Source: an uncultured Fidelibacterota bacterium (GTDB lineage: Bacteria > Fidelibacterota > Marinisomatia > Marinisomatales > TCS55). Taken from it: DNA of 64,000 nt. The notes below the pieces were generated by a model. That model worked only from the letters and a program-made list of their open reading frames with translations, did no database searches and was not told where the DNA came from. Shown here one piece after another: positions 7,245 to 43,385 of this stretch; the first letter of the stretch is position 1, and each line of letters opens with the position of its first letter. Where the stretch lies: assembly GCA_902615915.1 (NCBI GenBank), contig CACMQQ010000002.1, forward strand, positions 62,001 to 126,000. The letters are read 5' to 3'. The position numbers and the translations under genes are program-made.

Positions 7245-8009
7245 TTATAAATCATTTAAAATATTCTTTGCTTTTTTAACTTGATCCCAATCCTCTACAG
7301 ATAAATTGCTTGAAGAGCTTTCTTGAATTATTTTGTTAAGAAGATCAATAGCTTCTTCTTCTTTGCCATCCTTTAACATAGATTGAGCATAATATATATT
7401 TTGAGAAAATGTAGCGCTTCCAGTGCCTACTGAAAGCCTGAGCCACTTTATCGCTTCATCATTGCTTGGCCACGATAAGAAAAAAGGAATGTATGGAGTT
7501 TTAAAATGAACAACCCCCAACATTAAGTAGCCACCTCCATCGGCATACAACGGATCAATTTTAATAATTTTCTCGGCATGCATTTTCATCTGATCAGCTA
7601 AACCCTCTCTTGCCGCTGCTACAATTCCTGAAATTTCAGCCCAACTACCAAGATTCACTAAATACCAATATCTTATATCTGCTCTGTTGGGATACTCATT
7701 TATTTTTTTTTGACCTAAGTCTTTGCCTTTTTTAAATAGCTCTAGACTTTCTTCTTCCGATAATTGACAATATTTCCCTTTAAAATAATAACTTTTCAAT
7801 AATCCTAAATTTGCTTCAAGGTCATTAGAATTTACTGATTTCAAGTAGTTTTCGATCGCTAGGGCAATTTCAGTTGTATCTGCAAAATTTTCATTAGAAT
7901 TAAGGGATCTATTTTGATAGTGCTTATTAGCAATATCTAAATATTGAGATGCGCCGTTTGCAAAAAATAAAAAAAACGTTATAAAGTAAAAGAATTTAAA
8001 AATATTCAA
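7245..8009 (-). CDS. secreted TPR-like repeat protein
   Basis: N-terminal signal-like segment and TPR-like helical content (NDLEANLGLLKSYYFKGKY...). Confidence 0.55.
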   Translation of the reverse strand: MNIFKFFYFITFFLFFANGASQYLDIANKHYQNRSLNSNENFADTTEIALAIENYLKSVNSNDLEANLGLLKSYYFKGKYCQLSEEESLELFKKGKDLGQKKINEYPNRADIRYWYLVNLGSWAEISGIVAAAREGLADQMKMHAEKIIKIDPLYADGGGYLMLGVVHFKTPYIPFFLSWPSNDEAIKWLRLSVGTGSATFSQNIYYAQSMLKDGKEEEAIDLLNKIIQESSSSNLSVEDWDQVKKAKNILNDL

Positions 8010-8757
8010 TGTAAGTAATCTTTATTTCGCGGTTAAAATAGTCTACTTTCTTTTTATCAAACATCAAATTATTGAAATCTATTTCAATGTGAAGCCTTTC
8101 AACAAATGTCCATCTTACGCCAGCATTTAAATAGCCTCCTCTAGATATAGCTATATTTTTTGATGTCATATTATTTTCATTCAAAGCGGCATTATATTCA
8201 AACATCATTGATAATTCTGGGTTGAACTCTATATCAAAACCCATAAAAAAATTAACATCTTTATCATTGTCATTAGTTTCTACAAAGTTATAATTAGATC
8301 CAAAATGCCAGCCTAAATTTCCTAATGGGGTTACCCAATTTTTGCTACCCACAGCAAAAAGTCCTAGTGCTTTAGTATCATATCTCATCAAAGAATCATC
8401 TGGGTTAAATTTCCCAAGGCCTTGCGTATCAATGCCTATGGATATGCCAGGAGAATTTTCGGACTCATCAATTAATAAGTATTTTAAATTTGTTTCAGGC
8501 TTTGGATACCAAATTAAACTATCATCTCCAATCAAATTTGCAGAACCGTATGATATTCCCAATTGAAATCTATCAGTAAGCCCAACGCTTATCAAACTTG
8601 TCAGGCCGCCAAATTTTTGTATTCTCATTTCAAGTGCAAAACTTCCTCTTTGTAGTGTACCTGCAGTAGGTAGAGTAATAAGGCTACTAGGGGGCGGATA
8701 GGATTGTGCATTTAACACAAATGATAAAAAAAGGAAATAGTATTTAATTCGCTTCAT
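7996..8757 (-). CDS. predicted outer-membrane beta-barrel protein, uncharacterised
   Basis: Signal peptide then alternating beta-strand pattern (GLTDRFQLGISYGSANLIG, LNAGVRWTFVERLHIEIDFNNLMF). Confidence 0.5.
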   Translation of the reverse strand: MKRIKYYFLFLSFVLNAQSYPPPSSLITLPTAGTLQRGSFALEMRIQKFGGLTSLISVGLTDRFQLGISYGSANLIGDDSLIWYPKPETNLKYLLIDESENSPGISIGIDTQGLGKFNPDDSLMRYDTKALGLFAVGSKNWVTPLGNLGWHFGSNYNFVETNDNDKDVNFFMGFDIEFNPELSMMFEYNAALNENNMTSKNIAISRGGYLNAGVRWTFVERLHIEIDFNNLMFDKKKVDYFNREIKITYIEYF

Positions 8758-8819: not shown

Positions 8820-12253
<3,434 letters not shown>

Positions 12254-12313: not shown

Positions 12314-15300
12314 TTACCAATCAAACCCTATAGAAATATACCACTGAGGTTTTGAGAATCCCGATTCAGTCCAATCATAGGCAGCTTCAATTCTCCATGG
12401 AAGTATTATGGGTAATTTAATTCCATATCCAATAGACCTAACCCAGGGACTGAAGTTGTTTGAAACATCCCCGTACTTATTTCTTAATGCTCTGATATCT
12501 GTGAATTCTTTAGGATCATCCCACGCAGCTCCAACATCAACAAAGATGTGACCTAAAATATTACCTAACACTAAGGGTCCTGTTACAAGATATTTTATCA
12601 GCGGGAATCTATATTCAAAATTCATTAATAGAACGTTGGTACCATATCTTTCACCATATCGAGCTCCTCTCATTGGCCAAACTAGCTCTGATAGATATAA
12701 ATCTTGCAGTAGGGATTCATTGTTGCTATCAAGAAATCCATATCTTGATCTTGAGCCATCTTCTATGCCATCAGTCGTTCCGCTACCTGCCATCCAATTT
12801 TGCATACCACCTAAAAAGAAGCGCGATGGATTTCTTCCAGTACTGGAGCCAAAATACAACCTGCCAGCCAAGGAATTATCTCTATTTATCATTTGATATT
12901 TACGCATATCAAGTTTGAAACTTTGAAAGGATATTCCAGCTTCACCGACAGCAGGACTTATTTCAATGGTAGCGTTTTGACGGAAACCGTCTATTGGCCC
13001 AAGAAAACCGTTTACTGAATTGTCAAATACGTATCCTATTGCAGGTCGTAAAGCTGTTAAGCCATCATTGTCCAATACGTTCACTTGATTAATATAGGGA
13101 TCTACGACAGTGAGCTTTCTTTCTAAATTGCGAAATTCTATACCCGCATCAAGCCTATTGAATCTGTTAAAGGGCCTTGAAGCGACGAATGCCAAACCAT
13201 AATCTCTTGAATTTATCATATAATCAATAGGGTAGCCTTGAGAACTGAACCCATAACCGGCAAAGAAATTTTGAGCCTGATGAATAAAAGCTAACTGGTA
13301 ATCAGTTCTTTCCTTTAGATATTGATAGCTAAATCCAAAGTCATTATTGTAAGATAATTGTGATTCCATAAATAATTGGATGTTATGATCACCCATCAAA
13401 TCGCTGAATTGAAATGTTAAATAACCCTGTGGGCCAAACAAAGTATTATAGCCAACATCATAATCAGCAATATCTAGAGAAAATCGCGTTAGATAAGATT
13501 GTGGTATATATTCACCATTATCATTTTTTAGTTGCACGTTTGACTTTAAAAAAGATGGCTGTTCGTAATCATCTTGGGATTTTTGATCATTAAGATACTG
13601 ATATTCCCATGCAAATATATAATCTGAGTAATCAGTTGTATTGGACTCAACTCCTCTATATTTGTCTTCTCTCAAATCAACAATATCTTCTTTTAGGTCA
13701 CTTTTGATGTTTTTTATGTAGATAGTTGGCTCAATTGTTTGTTCTTTCATTTGAAGTGGGTTATTGAGACTATAAACATCCCAACCCCACCCTGAATATC
13801 CTGAAAAAATCATCATTGCATCATCATTTGTCAAACTCAATCCTTTCAGGCCTGTTATAAAATTTGTTACCGGGTAAGCATTGCCAGAGTCAAGATCATG
13901 CTTAAAGATGTTCCAAGTTCCATTATAGTCAGACGTATAAAAAATCACATTCTCAGTATTTGCATAGACTGGATAATTTTTATTGGAACTTGAGTTAGTT
14001 ATTTTTTCAACAACCTTTGTATTGATATCAATGGAATATATATTATTTTGCTCAAAATTATGATCAATCATATCTACTGCTGTTGTGGGAACTCTATCTA
14101 TTTTTGTTCCTCTGTCAGAAACAAATAATAACTTTGAACTTGATGGGTGCCATGATGGCTCAGAATCAGAAAAGATATCGCTTGTAAGATTAACAATTTC
14201 ATTTGTGTTAAGGTCTATGGTATAGATGTCGCTTGCGCTATTTTTATTGCCCACAAAAGCCAATCTCATTCCATCTGGTGACCACTTTGGAGTAAAAACG
14301 CCTTCCAGATCGAATGGTATTTTCTTAGAATCGCCATTTCTAGTATTTATAATATGAAAAGCATCCTTAGAACCAGCTTTAGCAGCAATAACTATTTTTC
14401 TACCGTCTGGTGACCAAGAAACTCCTGGTTGCAATAGTTTTAGTTCTTCGAATTCTATTGATCGATTGCCCTTAACAGCTCTTTTGACTTTTTTCCCTGA
14501 CACAGCATCAATAATATCAATGTCTATGTACCCCATATTATCTTTAAAGTAAACAATCTGACTTCCATCTGGAGAAATAGCAGGCGCTATATTATAAAAG
14601 TTATTAGATTTTTTGTGATCGGTTAAAGGTTTTGCAACATCATCAATTGCATCCCTTCCCGCAATATCAGGAAAGTATTCTTTTTTGATATATTTCTGCC
14701 ATTGCTCATTGAGCTCTTCATAGTCCATTCCAAGAGCCTCTTCGAAGCCTTTTTCTGCATTCTGATATCTTTTCATTGCTTGTAGAATTTCCGCTATTTT
14801 TTCTCTTCCGTATTTTTTAGCAATGAATCTCCAAACAGATTGACCTCCACGGTAAGCAAGTATGGATTGAAGTTCGCTAATAGATGGTATTCTTTCATTT
14901 ATAGCAAGATCTCTTATTATCATATCAACTTCGGTGTCCCAATTTGATGATAAAAATTCAGCAAGACCTTCATTGGCCCACAAAGGGATTGATAATTGAG
15001 TCCGACTTCTAACGATATTTTGTATTCTTCCTCCATAAACCATATCGTTTATCATAGCATGCACTAATTCATGATGAAGCGTATTTCTAAATTCTTGGTA
15101 ATCTCCTTCAAATGGCATGACAACTCTATTTTTATAAAGCTCCGTTACTCCTAATATTCCTTCCTGCATGTAAACGCTTACTACATTATTTTGCTGAAAT
15201 TCATTGTGAGAATTATAGATTATAATTGAGACGGGTTTTTTTAATTGCCATCTTAGATGTTTTGAGATTTGTTCGTACGATTTGATTGACTCTTCCATAG

Positions 15301-15472
15301 TATAGGTGGCTAATTCAATTTGATCACCATAATAATAGACGGCGAAGTTATAATCCGGGTTCGCAATATAGTTCCATTCAAAGTCGCGGTATTGTACTTT
15401 GTTCTGTCCAAAAGCTTGAGCTTGTATTGACGAAGAGAGGGCAAATAGTGTATATAGTATATATTTAGTCAT
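12314..15472 (-). CDS. multidomain outer-membrane protein: gluzincin-like metallopeptidase + TolB-like beta-propeller + C-terminal beta-barrel
   Basis: Signal peptide; HHELVHAMI and NEGLAEFLS zinc-peptidase motifs; repeated SPDG...I(V/A)(F/Y) propeller blades; barrel-like C-terminus ending ISIGFDW. Confidence 0.8.
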   Translation of the reverse strand: MTKYILYTLFALSSSIQAQAFGQNKVQYRDFEWNYIANPDYNFAVYYYGDQIELATYTMEESIKSYEQISKHLRWQLKKPVSIIIYNSHNEFQQNNVVSVYMQEGILGVTELYKNRVVMPFEGDYQEFRNTLHHELVHAMINDMVYGGRIQNIVRSRTQLSIPLWANEGLAEFLSSNWDTEVDMIIRDLAINERIPSISELQSILAYRGGQSVWRFIAKKYGREKIAEILQAMKRYQNAEKGFEEALGMDYEELNEQWQKYIKKEYFPDIAGRDAIDDVAKPLTDHKKSNNFYNIAPAISPDGSQIVYFKDNMGYIDIDIIDAVSGKKVKRAVKGNRSIEFEELKLLQPGVSWSPDGRKIVIAAKAGSKDAFHIINTRNGDSKKIPFDLEGVFTPKWSPDGMRLAFVGNKNSASDIYTIDLNTNEIVNLTSDIFSDSEPSWHPSSSKLLFVSDRGTKIDRVPTTAVDMIDHNFEQNNIYSIDINTKVVEKITNSSSNKNYPVYANTENVIFYTSDYNGTWNIFKHDLDSGNAYPVTNFITGLKGLSLTNDDAMMIFSGYSGWGWDVYSLNNPLQMKEQTIEPTIYIKNIKSDLKEDIVDLREDKYRGVESNTTDYSDYIFAWEYQYLNDQKSQDDYEQPSFLKSNVQLKNDNGEYIPQSYLTRFSLDIADYDVGYNTLFGPQGYLTFQFSDLMGDHNIQLFMESQLSYNNDFGFSYQYLKERTDYQLAFIHQAQNFFAGYGFSSQGYPIDYMINSRDYGLAFVASRPFNRFNRLDAGIEFRNLERKLTVVDPYINQVNVLDNDGLTALRPAIGYVFDNSVNGFLGPIDGFRQNATIEISPAVGEAGISFQSFKLDMRKYQMINRDNSLAGRLYFGSSTGRNPSRFFLGGMQNWMAGSGTTDGIEDGSRSRYGFLDSNNESLLQDLYLSELVWPMRGARYGERYGTNVLLMNFEYRFPLIKYLVTGPLVLGNILGHIFVDVGAAWDDPKEFTDIRALRNKYGDVSNNFSPWVRSIGYGIKLPIILPWRIEAAYDWTESGFSKPQWYISIGFDW

Positions 15473-15598: not shown

Positions 15599-16336
15599 AT
15601 GGATTTACCAATCTATTTTATATCGGACATACATTTGTCTTTAAACCTAACAGATAGGGAAAAACAAAGACAAAAAAAACTTTTTGATTTTTTTAACGAA
15701 ATAAAAAATACAGGTGGTACACTTGTCATAAATGGGGATTTGTTTGATTTTTATTTTGAGTATAAAAACGTTATACCAAAGGTTTTTTTTAAATTCTATC
15801 ATGAACTAATGAAGGTCAGAGAATCAGGAATTGAAGTACATTATGTTTTAGGCAATCATGATTTTTGGGTAAAAGATTTCATAACTGAACAATTATTTGA
15901 TAAAACATATTTTTCTGATACCTCTTTTGAAGTTAATAATACAAAAATTTATGTCACACACGGAGATGGCTATCTTTCATGGGACAGAGGATACAGAGCA
16001 TTAAGAAAAATTATAAGATCAAAGCTGTTTATAAATCTATACGGTATGCTTCATCCTAGGATAGGATATGCCATAGGTAATTTTGTATCTAAAAAAGGTG
16101 GAAACTATTTACATTCAGCTGAGCGAAACAAAAAAATATCTGATGAGATGTCTATACACGCTAAGAAAAAGATAGATCAAGGATTTGATTACTTTATCTC
16201 TGGTCATTATCATCAAGCAGAAGATAGAAAATTAAACGATGGAAATATGATAATATTGGGAGATTGGCTTAGTTTTTTTACCTATGCTAAGTATGATGGA
16301 AGCGAAATAAAGCTACACAAATGGAAAGAAATTTGA
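15599..16336 (+). CDS. lpxH: UDP-2,3-diacylglucosamine hydrolase-like metallophosphoesterase
   Basis: SDIHLS, NGDLFDF, LGNHDFW, HGDG, SGHYHQA metallophosphoesterase motifs. Confidence 0.75.
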   Translation: MDLPIYFISDIHLSLNLTDREKQRQKKLFDFFNEIKNTGGTLVINGDLFDFYFEYKNVIPKVFFKFYHELMKVRESGIEVHYVLGNHDFWVKDFITEQLFDKTYFSDTSFEVNNTKIYVTHGDGYLSWDRGYRALRKIIRSKLFINLYGMLHPRIGYAIGNFVSKKGGNYLHSAERNKKISDEMSIHAKKKIDQGFDYFISGHYHQAEDRKLNDGNMIILGDWLSFFTYAKYDGSEIKLHKWKEI

Positions 16337-17472
16337 AATATAAAAATCAATTAATAATTCTAACTATTTTCTCATTATTTTTTAGTAGCTGCTCAACAAT
16401 ACAACGTTTTTTACCAAATAGAAAAAGTTCAAGCGATGAAATTTCCTATGAACTTATTGAAAATTTAAGTTTGTCATTTTCAGAAGGTAAATTACAAGCA
16501 CTAGAGGAAATGATAGCAATTTACAATGATTCAAATCAACCATTTGATGTTAGAATGGCTGCAGGTAGGGCTTTAGCAGCTACTCAACATCCAACTGCAT
16601 TGAACGCTTTGTCTATAACCGTTGGAGAGGCTGCTGCATTAAACGTCACATTTATGATAGCATCAATAGAACTTTTAGCTCAATTTAGGGATGATCCAAG
16701 GGCAGCAGATGCTATGGTAGCTGCAATGAATCGAGTTGAAGAAAAAACTAATACTTTGCAAATGGCTTTAGTTCAAAATTTGAACAAAGTACGAACGAAG
16801 GACCAAGTATTGGCCCTGCTAGATCTTTACGAAGTTAGTAAAAGTAATTTTAACAGAACTGAAAAATTGCTAACTGAAACTTTGGGTGCACTTGGCACTG
16901 ATGAAGTTGTTCCAATTCTAACTGAAATTTCGAGAAATCCATCTGTAAGAATTGGCATTAGAAATAGGGCTCTAGAAATTCTTGGTAAAAAAGACCCTTC
17001 CCAAGTTGCAGGAGCTTTTGCAGAGCTTTTGGGTGACCCTGAAACAAATTTAGAGGTCAGAGATTTTGCACTTGACACAATGAAGGGCGTTAAAGAAGAA
17101 AATTTAATACTTGCCCTGCTTCAGACCTACCGCACCGGCAAGGATCAATATTACAATATTTTGAACACCCTTTTAGAAGCACTGGGTGAATTTGATGATC
17201 CCGATATCAGAAGAGCAGTATTAGAGGTGGGGATGAATGACGACTATCCTATGGAGATCAGAGAAAAAGCAATATCAAAATTACCTGATATTGGAGATGA
17301 TAGAGTCATACCTTCCATTATGCCTATACTTTCAGATCATAATCAATTCAAATTACATGATGCTGTGATTCAAACTGTTAAAAACTTTGGTGCATATAAG
17401 AATTATGAACAAGAAATCAAAAAGCGCACCTTTGAAGCTCATCAAAAATCTGAATCAGAGAAAAATGACTAA
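16321..17472 (+). CDS. HEAT-repeat lipoprotein
   Basis: Lipobox-like FSSCST; repeated helical HEAT-like units (VRMAAGRALAATQHPTALNAL, VRIGIRNRALEILGKKDPSQVAG). Confidence 0.7.
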   Translation: MERNLKYKNQLIILTIFSLFFSSCSTIQRFLPNRKSSSDEISYELIENLSLSFSEGKLQALEEMIAIYNDSNQPFDVRMAAGRALAATQHPTALNALSITVGEAAALNVTFMIASIELLAQFRDDPRAADAMVAAMNRVEEKTNTLQMALVQNLNKVRTKDQVLALLDLYEVSKSNFNRTEKLLTETLGALGTDEVVPILTEISRNPSVRIGIRNRALEILGKKDPSQVAGAFAELLGDPETNLEVRDFALDTMKGVKEENLILALLQTYRTGKDQYYNILNTLLEALGEFDDPDIRRAVLEVGMNDDYPMEIREKAISKLPDIGDDRVIPSIMPILSDHNQFKLHDAVIQTVKNFGAYKNYEQEIKKRTFEAHQKSESEKND

Positions 17473-36498: not shown

Positions 36499-37326
36499 AT
36501 GAGAATTCTCTTATCATACTTATTTACAATCAATCTTGTGTCAGCGCAATTTGGAAAAATAAACGTTACCGTAGATGATAGATTGCTCAGGAGCTCTGAA
36601 AGACAGAAGATTGCTCAAATCAATAATGATATTTCTAGATTTTTTTCAAGTAATTCATGGAATGATGATTACAGAGATCTAAATATAAATTTAAATATTT
36701 CATTGATCTTTCAAAACTCATCACAGAAAGGTGGGCTTGAGACCTTTCATGCTCAAATTCTTATTAGCGATGGTTTGGACATCAGATTTTTCGACAAATC
36801 ACTCCAATTTAACTACAATAGTGGCGGCACTTTATACTTTGATCCAGTGATCTTCAATCCTTTAGGAAGTCTTTTAGCCTTTTATGCTCATTTAAGTATA
36901 GCTTATTATGTTGATACATATGATTTTTATGGTGGAAACTACAATTTTGATATAGCGAGGGAAATAGCTTTAAGAGGAGTTTCTTCAGATTTTTCAAAAG
37001 GATGGAACAATAGAATGCAGCTTCTAAAAGAGATTTATGACAACAAAGGGTTGCGCGAAGCCCGATTTGCATTCTATGTTGCAACAGAACTTTTTAATAA
37101 TGGAAAACCAGACCAATCTCTCGAAGAATATTCAATCATGATGAATGGTCTTGAAAAAGTATTTCGTCAATTTCCTACTGGACGTACTCTATACTTTTTA
37201 AATGCTCATCATCAAGAACTTGCAAACAATCTTCAAATTCTTGGTCAAGACAAGATCTTAGAACAATTGGCTATTATGGATCCAGCTCACAAAGCCATTT
37301 ATCTATTTAAATCAAATTCTAGGTGA
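36499..37326 (+). CDS. DUF4835 (PorD-like) secreted protein
   Basis: Signal peptide; FDPVIFNPLGSLLAFYAHLSIAYYVDTYDFYGG..., YNSGGTLYF pattern. Confidence 0.7.
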   Translation: MRILLSYLFTINLVSAQFGKINVTVDDRLLRSSERQKIAQINNDISRFFSSNSWNDDYRDLNINLNISLIFQNSSQKGGLETFHAQILISDGLDIRFFDKSLQFNYNSGGTLYFDPVIFNPLGSLLAFYAHLSIAYYVDTYDFYGGNYNFDIAREIALRGVSSDFSKGWNNRMQLLKEIYDNKGLREARFAFYVATELFNNGKPDQSLEEYSIMMNGLEKVFRQFPTGRTLYFLNAHHQELANNLQILGQDKILEQLAIMDPAHKAIYLFKSNSR

Positions 37327-40448: not shown

Positions 40449-43385
40449 TTAGTTCAAATCTTCGAGCAGTTTTTTTGCAACTGGGTCATCTGGATTTTTT
40501 GCAAGCCAGTCATTTAAGACTCCTTTTGCATTTTCAATCATGTTGAGCTGCTTGTAGGCATATACCAAAGATGAAATTATCTGAGTAAAACTTTCTTGCC
40601 ATTCACCAATTTCTTGTTGGGAGGCTAGCCTTTTGCCGGCTTCGATATCCTTAAACTCTAGATAAAGTTTTTCAAAGATATCTTTACCAAGCTTTACTGA
40701 GTCAAGTTGTGTCATAAAGACTTGTCCGTAGTCTACACGATCTCGAATCATCAGATCGTCTCTTTGGATCAAAATATTCATTATTCTCGACAATTCTTCA
40801 TTTTTCCCTAGTTCTCCAAATATACGCGCAACTTGATAATGCAAATCTTTGGAATCAAATCTAATGGTTTTTTCAGGTATGTTGTCTTGCATTTTATTCA
40901 TCACAGCTAGAGCCTTCTCACGATGATATTCAAGTTTCTGTTCATCCCCATTCTCATTTTCTTTGAATTTCATAAAATGAAAAACTGCTAACTGCATATA
41001 TGCGCTTCTTAGATTCTGCAGTAATCTTATATTAGTAGAGGGAAAATAGTATACGTCCTCTCGTCCTAAGTTTCTAAACAGATATCCAGGCTTGTAATCT
41101 TTGGACCAAATTTCACCTTCTAAAGATTTCCACTCTTTTGCCTCAATATCTTTTTCCCAAACTTCAGAGCCATAGCCAGACATTAGATTTGCCCACATTC
41201 TTTCTTCATTAATTGGATTGCGTGCATTAGTTTTATAAGGTCTTAATCTATATACCAAGCCTTCCATTTCTAAAAATTCTTCAAGGCCCAACCTATTTGA
41301 ACCTGGAACGGTGACAGCAAAATAAATTGGATATTTCCACTGTGAATCAGAAATTATTCTTAAAATCATTAAATCTTTAACCATCAATGCTACCCCAGCA
41401 TAAGTAGGGTCAACTTTCCATTGTATGAATCCATCATTGTTTTGTTTCGTCAATGGAGCCGGAACTTTAACATTGCTTGATTTCCATTCTCTAAGTCCGG
41501 AAGCAACAGCTTTAATCTCCTCATCTCCCATATTGATGAACATACCTTCGTTGTCTTCGCTATCCAGTCTTTTTATTCTTGCTGGTCTTAATTTCTTAAT
41601 TTGACGAATATACCACTCTGTGTTGAGAAGGCTAAGATTTGCTATGGTAACATCTCTTCTGATCCCTTCGACTTCTTGTAAATACCATAGTGGAAAAGTA
41701 TCATTATCGCCATTCGTAAATAATATCGCGTTAGGTTCACATGATTGTAAAATATTATAACTATAATCCCATGCTATTCTGTTATCTGAACGATCATGTT
41801 CATGGTAATTTGCTTTCAACATCATTCCAGGCATAGCCACCAACAAAAAAACAAATGTCCCTACAATAGCATATTTTGAATTGGGTTTGTCCTGAAAAAA
41901 CTTTCGCACATAATCTCCAATAGATGATAATGCGATGCCTATCCAAATTGAAAAAGCAAAGAAACTACCCACATACGAATAATCTCGTTCCCGTGGCTGA
42001 GGATCATTTTGATTCACAAAAATAATAATAGCAAGGCCAGTCATCAAAAAAAGACTGAGAACAGAAAAGGCAGATTCTTTATCTCTTTGAAAATGATAAA
42101 AGAGGCCCCATAATCCCATTAAAAATGCCAGAGGTAGGCCAAATTGAAACCAATAAACTCCATCTTGGTTGGAATTTGCACCGTATGATGTTACGTAATC
42201 ATCTGTGCTCGCACCTCTACCAGCAAATTGCCATAAAAAATAACGCCAATACATTTTTTTGATTTGATATGACAAAAAATAATCCCACTGTTTATCCATC
42301 CGATAGGTCTTATAATTCCTTTCTTGCCTGGGAGAGTATTCGCCATTGTTAGCCGGTCTACCGACCACTTCATGTTTGGGTGGCAATCCTCTAAAACGCC
42401 TAGGGAACTGAAACATTTGACCGTATTGTTCACGCTCCATATAAGCAATTGCGCGAGTAACATTTGATGGATCATTCTCATTAATTGCAGGTTGCTGCTG
42501 AGATCGAACAAATATACTTGCATAACTTGAATATCCTATAAGAACCAAAACAGTAGCAGTTAAGAAATATGAAACTTGAAATTTTTTATAAATGATCGAA
42601 GCGATCATTAATCCCAAAAGTAACAATACTGCAAAAACAAATGGATAAAACCCAATCAACCTCACAAGTTTTGGAACGCCATTTATTATTCCTGAATTAA
42701 TTACAAGATAAACAATGCCAGTTAATAAAACTGTTACAAAAAAGCCTTTATAGCTAAAATCAAATTTTCTAAAAAAAATAATTAATGCGATGAAAGGAAG
42801 TGCCAACAAATTTAAAAGATGAACTCCGGTAGCCAATCCAATCATATAGGCTATTATCAAAATGTACCTTTCGTTACCATCTTCATCTGCTTTTTCAGAC
42901 CAAAGCAATATGAGCCATACCACTATAGCAGTAAAAAATGTAGAGAAGCCATAGACCTCTGCCTCAACAGCATTAAACCAATGAGAATCAGTAAATGCAA
43001 ATGTTAATGATCCTATTAAAGATGAAGAATAAACTATAATTGCATCTAATTGAGTTTTAATTTTTCCCCTAAAGCGATTGATAAGCTTTACATTAGACAA
43101 ATACAAAAACATGACGGCCAGTGCGCTAACTATCGGTGAGATCAAATTAACCCTAAATGCAATATCTGAATTAAAAGGAAGCATAGAAAAAATTCTTCCC
43201 AATAGCAAGTAAAGGGGACTACCAGGGGGATGAGGAACTCCTAAAATGTAAGATGATGCGATAAATTCTCCAGAGTCCCAATATGGGACAGTATCAGCCA
43301 TTGTAGCAAGGTAAACTAAGAACGATGCTACAAGTGAAATCACAGCACCAATTTTGTTCCATGATATATAGCTTGAATTAATCAA
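40449..43385 (-). CDS. DUF2723 multi-pass membrane protein (GT-C-like)
   Basis: DTVPYWDSGEFIASSYILGVPHPPGSPLYLLLGRIFSMLPF. Confidence 0.9.
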   Translation of the reverse strand: MINSSYISWNKIGAVISLVASFLVYLATMADTVPYWDSGEFIASSYILGVPHPPGSPLYLLLGRIFSMLPFNSDIAFRVNLISPIVSALAVMFLYLSNVKLINRFRGKIKTQLDAIIVYSSSLIGSLTFAFTDSHWFNAVEAEVYGFSTFFTAIVVWLILLWSEKADEDGNERYILIIAYMIGLATGVHLLNLLALPFIALIIFFRKFDFSYKGFFVTVLLTGIVYLVINSGIINGVPKLVRLIGFYPFVFAVLLLLGLMIASIIYKKFQVSYFLTATVLVLIGYSSYASIFVRSQQQPAINENDPSNVTRAIAYMEREQYGQMFQFPRRFRGLPPKHEVVGRPANNGEYSPRQERNYKTYRMDKQWDYFLSYQIKKMYWRYFLWQFAGRGASTDDYVTSYGANSNQDGVYWFQFGLPLAFLMGLWGLFYHFQRDKESAFSVLSLFLMTGLAIIIFVNQNDPQPRERDYSYVGSFFAFSIWIGIALSSIGDYVRKFFQDKPNSKYAIVGTFVFLLVAMPGMMLKANYHEHDRSDNRIAWDYSYNILQSCEPNAILFTNGDNDTFPLWYLQEVEGIRRDVTIANLSLLNTEWYIRQIKKLRPARIKRLDSEDNEGMFINMGDEEIKAVASGLREWKSSNVKVPAPLTKQNNDGFIQWKVDPTYAGVALMVKDLMILRIISDSQWKYPIYFAVTVPGSNRLGLEEFLEMEGLVYRLRPYKTNARNPINEERMWANLMSGYGSEVWEKDIEAKEWKSLEGEIWSKDYKPGYLFRNLGREDVYYFPSTNIRLLQNLRSAYMQLAVFHFMKFKENENGDEQKLEYHREKALAVMNKMQDNIPEKTIRFDSKDLHYQVARIFGELGKNEELSRIMNILIQRDDLMIRDRVDYGQVFMTQLDSVKLGKDIFEKLYLEFKDIEAGKRLASQQEIGEWQESFTQIISSLVYAYKQLNMIENAKGVLNDWLAKNPDDPVAKKLLEDLN

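Follow-up and report, generated by a model that had tools for sequence, protein, structure and literature searches.

A secreted peptidase, a TolB-like propeller and an Omp85-type barrel joined in one bacterial protein

We found that a single gene of the window (the whole stretch of 64,000 nucleotides that was analyzed) encodes, in one chain, a signal peptide, a gluzincin-type peptidase, a TolB-like propeller and an Omp85 barrel. The gene lies at positions 12314-15472 on the minus strand, and its layout was established from the open reading frame, Pfam matches, an AlphaFold2 model and homologues. The first-pass annotation had read it as a protease and propeller tethered to their own barrel, which this single-chain layout supports. 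The zinc site of the peptidase is intact and highly constrained, and its sequence describes an apparently active protease. We tentatively propose, with a confidence somewhat short of even, that the protein is an active zinc metalloprotease anchored in the outer membrane by a built-in Omp85 barrel, facing the periplasm and acting in the maturation or quality control of outer-membrane proteins (OMPs).

Domain architecture

The coordinates match the bounds of the open reading frame exactly; it starts with ATG and encodes 1052 amino acids. The whole protein was modeled with AlphaFold2 using an alignment of 31 sequences (mean pLDDT 76.7, pTM 0.68), and propeller blades and barrel strands were counted by hand from the listed model elements. 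All features below are on the minus strand. A predicted signal peptide covers residues about 1-20 (positions 15413-15472, ...SIQAQA/FGQ), as read from the sequence and from a hydrophobic helix in the model.

The peptidase domain spans residues 30-275 (14648-15385). Peptidase_MA_2 matched residues 74-263 with an E-value of 9.7e-16, above the Pfam cut-off, and the domain folded on its own with a pLDDT of 80.7 and a pTM of 0.81. It carries a HELVH zinc motif at residues 134-138 (15059-15073) and a distal zinc ligand, E168 of NEGLAE (14969-14971). Searching the PDB by sequence with the profile of this domain yielded no useful match. In a fold search the nearest solved structures were M9 collagenases and M1 aminopeptidases, among them clostridial collagenase T, insulin-regulated aminopeptidase (IRAP), aminopeptidase N and Vibrio collagenase, with a modest best E-value of 6.8e-4. 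These are clan MA gluzincins, in agreement with the HExxH...E pattern, so that the gluzincin-like zinc site noticed earlier is borne out by both the ligands and the fold.

Residues about 290-572 (13757-14605) form a six-bladed TolB-like beta-propeller, whose blade strands are visible in the model. PD40 matched four stretches of the protein (E-value 3.2e-17), TolB chains were the best PDB sequence matches of the propeller, and a Foldseek search with the whole model retrieved TolB with an E-value of 2e-12. We rejected an assignment to TolB itself: the TolB equivalog model scored the protein at 116.9 bits against a cut-off of 343, and Pfam gave no TolB_N match in it. The propeller is followed by a variable linker of 83 amino acids (residues 573-655, 13508-13756), which was modeled with low confidence.

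The C-terminal residues 656-1052 (12317-13507) form a barrel with an aromatic C-terminus, with 16 strands between residues 664 and 1048 in the model. Foldseek matched BamA with an E-value of 2e-11, BamA barrels reaching a target-normalised TM-score of up to 0.63. The window barrel had no Pfam match at E<=1, whereas Omp85 matched 11 of the 31 aligned orthologues (best E-value 5.7e-16), and many orthologues of the same phylum exceeded its Pfam cut-off. Searched against the PDB, the barrel profile retrieved a POTRA-domain protein (2.5e-10) and BamA (4.5e-5). Omp85 proteins share two signatures, (V/L)RG(F/Y) within loop 6 and, in strand 13, FxDxG. Here strands 11 and 12 are joined by loop 6, which holds R935 and G936 within MRGA (12662-12673), and F977-x-D979-x-G981 lies in strand 13 as FVDVG (12530-12544). 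Loop 6 reads (L/M)RG(Y/F) in Ignavibacteria members, and in the window its fourth residue is A. The loop-6 motif has been described for Omp85, with LRGY in Flavobacterium BamA (PMC12611786). Loop 6 is long in the window protein (residues 879-945, 12638-12838), as delimited by the alignment and the strand boundaries of the model; in the relatives of the window it exceeds that of Ignavibacteria by about 20-25 residues, inserted between a conserved GG and the RG motif.

The 16-strand C-terminal barrel, the family-level profile homology and the two motifs together place the protein in the Omp85 superfamily, as the earlier comparison with BamA/Omp85-type barrels had anticipated. No POTRA family matched the window protein at E<=1 in Pfam, a search that a structurally divergent POTRA could escape. 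The Omp85 motifs, the fold and the profile matches rule out a generic aromatic repeat. Of the HMM searches that the first-pass annotation had suggested, those for the peptidase and the propeller succeeded on the window protein itself, while that for Omp85 succeeded on orthologues only; the AlphaFold2 model that it had called for does predict both propeller and barrel. The two points on which it had staked its reading, a C-terminal region predicted as a barrel and zinc ligands conserved in homologues, both turned out in its favor.

Conservation and selection

Conservation was assessed over 62 non-redundant full-length homologues. H134, E135, H138 and E168 of the peptidase and R935, G936, F977 and D979 of the barrel were invariant (62/62); E172 was kept in 61, G981 in 59 and an aromatic last residue (F/W/Y) in 60. 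The surroundings of the peptidase active site, EGxxGVTELxKNR, are extremely conserved. Mean identity was 0.55 in the peptidase, 0.45 in the propeller, 0.37 in the barrel and 0.22 in the linker, where no column was near-invariant. Against a 96%-identical relative, dN/dS was 0.05 overall, 0.03 in the peptidase and 0.016 in the barrel, which marks the gene as constrained. With the peptidase as the best-conserved domain, such low ratios indicate that it is under strong selection and is no decaying remnant. Invariant metal sites can also be structural, which counts against reading the domain as an active protease.

Distribution and paralogues

In each of the 149 genomes sampled from the window's phylum there was a match, reduced genomes of 0.7-1.0 Mb included; in 143 it was strong (best E-value below 1e-100; table counted by hand). 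This distribution, together with the dN/dS of 0.05, rules out a chance or mis-called ORF. Matches were weaker than 1e-100 in G019, G073, G077, G081, G082 and G112. The last, from the same order and 99% complete, had a best match of just 5.2e-12 and is the clearest candidate for a true gene loss.

Named relatives were MAGs of Candidatus Neomarinimicrobiota, Ignavibacteria, Chlorobiota and Kapabacteria. For the phylum that contains Kapabacteria, 297 genomes were sampled; 193 of them matched the peptidase domain, 147 at an E-value of about 1e-66 or better (hand count). Extra homologues aligned from this second sample kept HExxH and the glutamate in all cases except L131 (G434:C2), and nearly all those covering loop 6 kept its RG. 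The divergent L131 has RRELALT in place of HHELxHA and retains the RG of loop 6. Judged by these residues it is likely catalytically dead, and its loss of the zinc motif makes a non-catalytic role possible in some lineages.

The window genome encodes two further paralogues of similar layout and size, each with HExxH: group B on C1 (G000:C1; L067, 7997-10915, 972 amino acids) and group C on C21 (G000:C21; L105, from about 5024, an open frame of 978 amino acids). Their barrels were judged by length, sequence and the Omp85 matches of their counterparts, which were found across the phylum for both groups. In G006 (0.9 Mb), the group A gene was the sole match to the group B query among the matches listed, and the best matches to that query were weak in G028 and G036. 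Group A thus seems to be the paralogue retained when genomes shrink; the G006 result, together with the matches in all 149 genomes, points to a housekeeping role.

Gene neighborhood

Across the phylum, the gene has tgt and/or radA beside it in the same orientation, and an LpxH-like gene, a putative lipoprotein with HEAT repeats and a further exported protein are divergent. In the window, radA (10901-12253) and tgt (9760-10947) lie downstream on the minus strand; both are housekeeping genes, probably unrelated to the gene in function. On the plus strand, the LpxH-like phosphoesterase (15599-16336), recognized by NCBIfam UDP-2,3-diacylglucosamine diphosphatase models at scores below cut-off, adjoins the gene across the phylum and is followed by the HEAT-repeat protein (16321-17472). 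LpxC was present in 26 of 26 genomes searched, which makes a pathway of the lipid A type probable. Neighbors differed on the Ignavibacteria side, where M16-like peptidases occurred at some loci and a predicted outer-membrane receptor lay directly upstream in 8 of 22 loci, both assigned by sequence reading. Synteny across the phylum and these 22 loci revealed no partner or client gene that was constant across lineages. Dominated by housekeeping genes, the neighborhood weakly favors an envelope role and names no specific client.

Elsewhere in the window we noted a 978-amino-acid TMEM260-like protein O-mannosyltransferase (40449-43385), which suggests protein O-glycosylation in the organism, a DUF4835 protein (36499-37326) and a small predicted outer-membrane protein (7996-8757) with weak YjbH/OMP_b-brl matches below cut-off.

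TolB in related genomes

We searched related genomes for TolB. TolB_N was absent from 29 of 31 genomes and present in 2, and in none of 21 genomes did any protein exceed the TolB equivalog cut-off; a strongly divergent TolB could escape both searches. In the window genome, all listed TolB-propeller matches fell in frames of 660-1063 amino acids, none of them TolB-sized. Standalone TolB was thus undetected in nearly all close relatives, though LpxC and Omp85 proteins were present.

Comparison with known systems

Fusions of a propeller to an Omp85 barrel are already known, and the protein fits a loosely described family, WD40-Omp85 or OMP-TolB-like. WD40-Omp85 was defined as an Omp85 barrel with an N-terminal propeller most like TolB and without POTRA, and was suggested to be a BamA-BamB-like fusion (Heinz & Lithgow 2014; PMC4104836). 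The window protein shares the N-terminal TolB-like propeller, the fused barrel and the lack of a POTRA match. It differs in carrying a peptidase, and this phylum-wide, whereas the main text of the 2014 paper does not contain the word "peptidase"; the "Metallo" subfamily named there carries PF00149, a metallophosphoesterase family, and is separate from WD40-Omp85. That paper also describes Omp85 subfamilies other than BamA, TamA and Lipo as conserved at the genus level only (PMC4104836). More recently, OMP-TolB-like and FhaC-TolB-like proteins, with a six-bladed TolB-like propeller, an alpha/beta domain and an outer-membrane barrel, were reported widely in diderms, with the proposal that TolB may descend from the former (Mol Biol Evol 2025; PMC12204202). 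Compared by description, the domain adjacent to the propeller is termed a Rossmann fold there and is a Peptidase_MA_2 domain with an invariant zinc site here; the main text of that paper uses "peptidases" once, for another clade (PMC12204202). It further notes that many OMP-propeller proteins are automatically annotated as TolB (PMC12204202), and a partial homologue on a Salinibacter plasmid is labeled "basic secretory protein-like protein", so the earlier expectation that relatives carry generic annotations was correct.

BepA is a soluble protein of M48 and TPR domains. Like it, the window protein would be a zinc protease of gluzincin type with assembling proteins at the outer membrane as its proposed targets, but its peptidase belongs to Peptidase_MA_2 and is fused to a propeller and a barrel. 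We rejected membership of the M48/BepA family, as Pfam gave no Peptidase_M48 match in the window protein and a trivial TPR_12 match only (E-value 0.12). PlpD, the patatin-Omp85 protein of type Vd, is a lipase with POTRA between enzyme and barrel. The window protein resembles it in having an enzyme N-terminal to an Omp85 barrel and differs in giving neither a patatin nor a POTRA match ahead of the barrel. Delivery of PlpD to the cell surface has been described (PMC4104836). TolB, similar to the propeller in sequence and fold, is soluble and periplasmic and has no barrel or peptidase, while the window protein has no TolB_N.

In the main texts of open-licence papers, nothing further that names the peptidase-propeller-Omp85 combination was found. 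What appears undescribed so far is the intact, constrained protease site and its phylum-wide retention; the gene order beside the LpxH-like gene and the lack of detectable standalone TolB in close relatives are also added here.

Proposed function

Judging from its domains and their conservation, the protein probably acts at the outer membrane, policing the proteins there or processing them. Export would run through Sec, with the C-terminal barrel of 16 strands inserting into the outer membrane. In even-stranded Omp85 proteins, both barrel ends face the periplasm; with 16 strands the same would hold here, and the barrel would keep both the TolB/BamB-like propeller and the gluzincin protease on its periplasmic side. 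Clients or partners may then dock on the propeller, and the protease may trim or remove proteins at this membrane, whether stalled or immature OMPs, lipoproteins or one specific client. We infer this periplasmic topology, the catalysis, the clients and the quality-control role from the features above. In E. coli, the periplasmic zinc metallopeptidase BepA promotes the maturation of LptD or degrades it when stalled (PMC8423444), a precedent by which a protease that forms part of an Omp85 chain could plausibly do a related job; one chain would work like the pair of BepA and BAM. M48 (BepA-family) peptidases were found in 16 of 26 relatives, one or two in each, which weakens a simple replacement of BepA; the other 10, the window genome included, had no Peptidase_M48 match. 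A bolder version, which we consider rather unlikely, makes the protein a complete outer-membrane assembly and quality-control unit in a single polypeptide, with an Omp85 insertase-type barrel, a docking propeller and a protease standing for BamA, BamB and BepA, shared by inheritance across two or more phyla, Marinimicrobia and the Ignavibacteria group among them, in some lineages without TolB. No PADLOC match was found, and we rejected a defense-system protein.

The first-pass annotation had offered "a self-contained secretion or OM quality-control device" as its inference, and we keep it as one; of its two halves, periplasmic quality control or maturation fits the data better than secretion. 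A self-secreted surface protease, in the manner of type Vd, would use the barrel to carry the attached peptidase and propeller to the surface, a route proposed for PlpD and its patatin domain, and digest external proteins there. The enzyme does sit directly N-terminal to an Omp85 barrel, the variable linker could thread the pore, secreted collagenases are among the related folds and heterotrophic bacteria would profit from surface proteolysis. We nevertheless find this improbable: PlpD-type proteins have the POTRA domain for which the window protein gave no match, a large propeller makes a poor passenger, the gene is kept in very small genomes, and diversifying surface enzymes would not be expected to have the peptidase as their most conserved domain, invariant near its site.

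Unlikely as well is a protease devoted to maturing a single client class (such as TonB-dependent receptors, or T9SS or lipoprotein cargo), with the barrel as the site of co-assembly and no part in quality control. The extreme conservation around the active site suggests a fixed substrate and the receptor genes upstream at Ignavibacteria-side loci would suit it, but no client gene stays nearby across lineages. Less probable still is a TolB-like envelope role, in which the propeller would connect the outer membrane with peptidoglycan or the division machinery and the peptidase would act as a regulator, in lineages without TolB. It draws on TolB being the closest relative of the propeller by sequence and fold, on the missing TolB_N and equivalog hits among relatives (29/31 and 21/21) and on the proposal that OMP-TolB-like proteins gave rise to TolB (PMC12204202). 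However, the window protein itself has no TolB_N, a divergent TolB could have been missed in the relatives, and a purely mechanical function leaves three paralogues and an intact protease site unexplained.

Omp85 proteins insert proteins into outer membranes or translocate them across. If the proposed periplasmic role in OMP maturation or quality control is true, a near-universal Omp85 protein with a conserved, apparently active protease would be a new coupling of outer-membrane assembly and proteolysis. About half of the genomes sampled from the second phylum contain a close homologue, which should open the question to tests in cultured members. The finding is also relevant to the idea that TolB derives from fusions of an OMP and a propeller, as relatives of the window appear to lack TolB and yet keep several such fusions. 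The bearers are major uncultured bacteria of ocean and groundwater.
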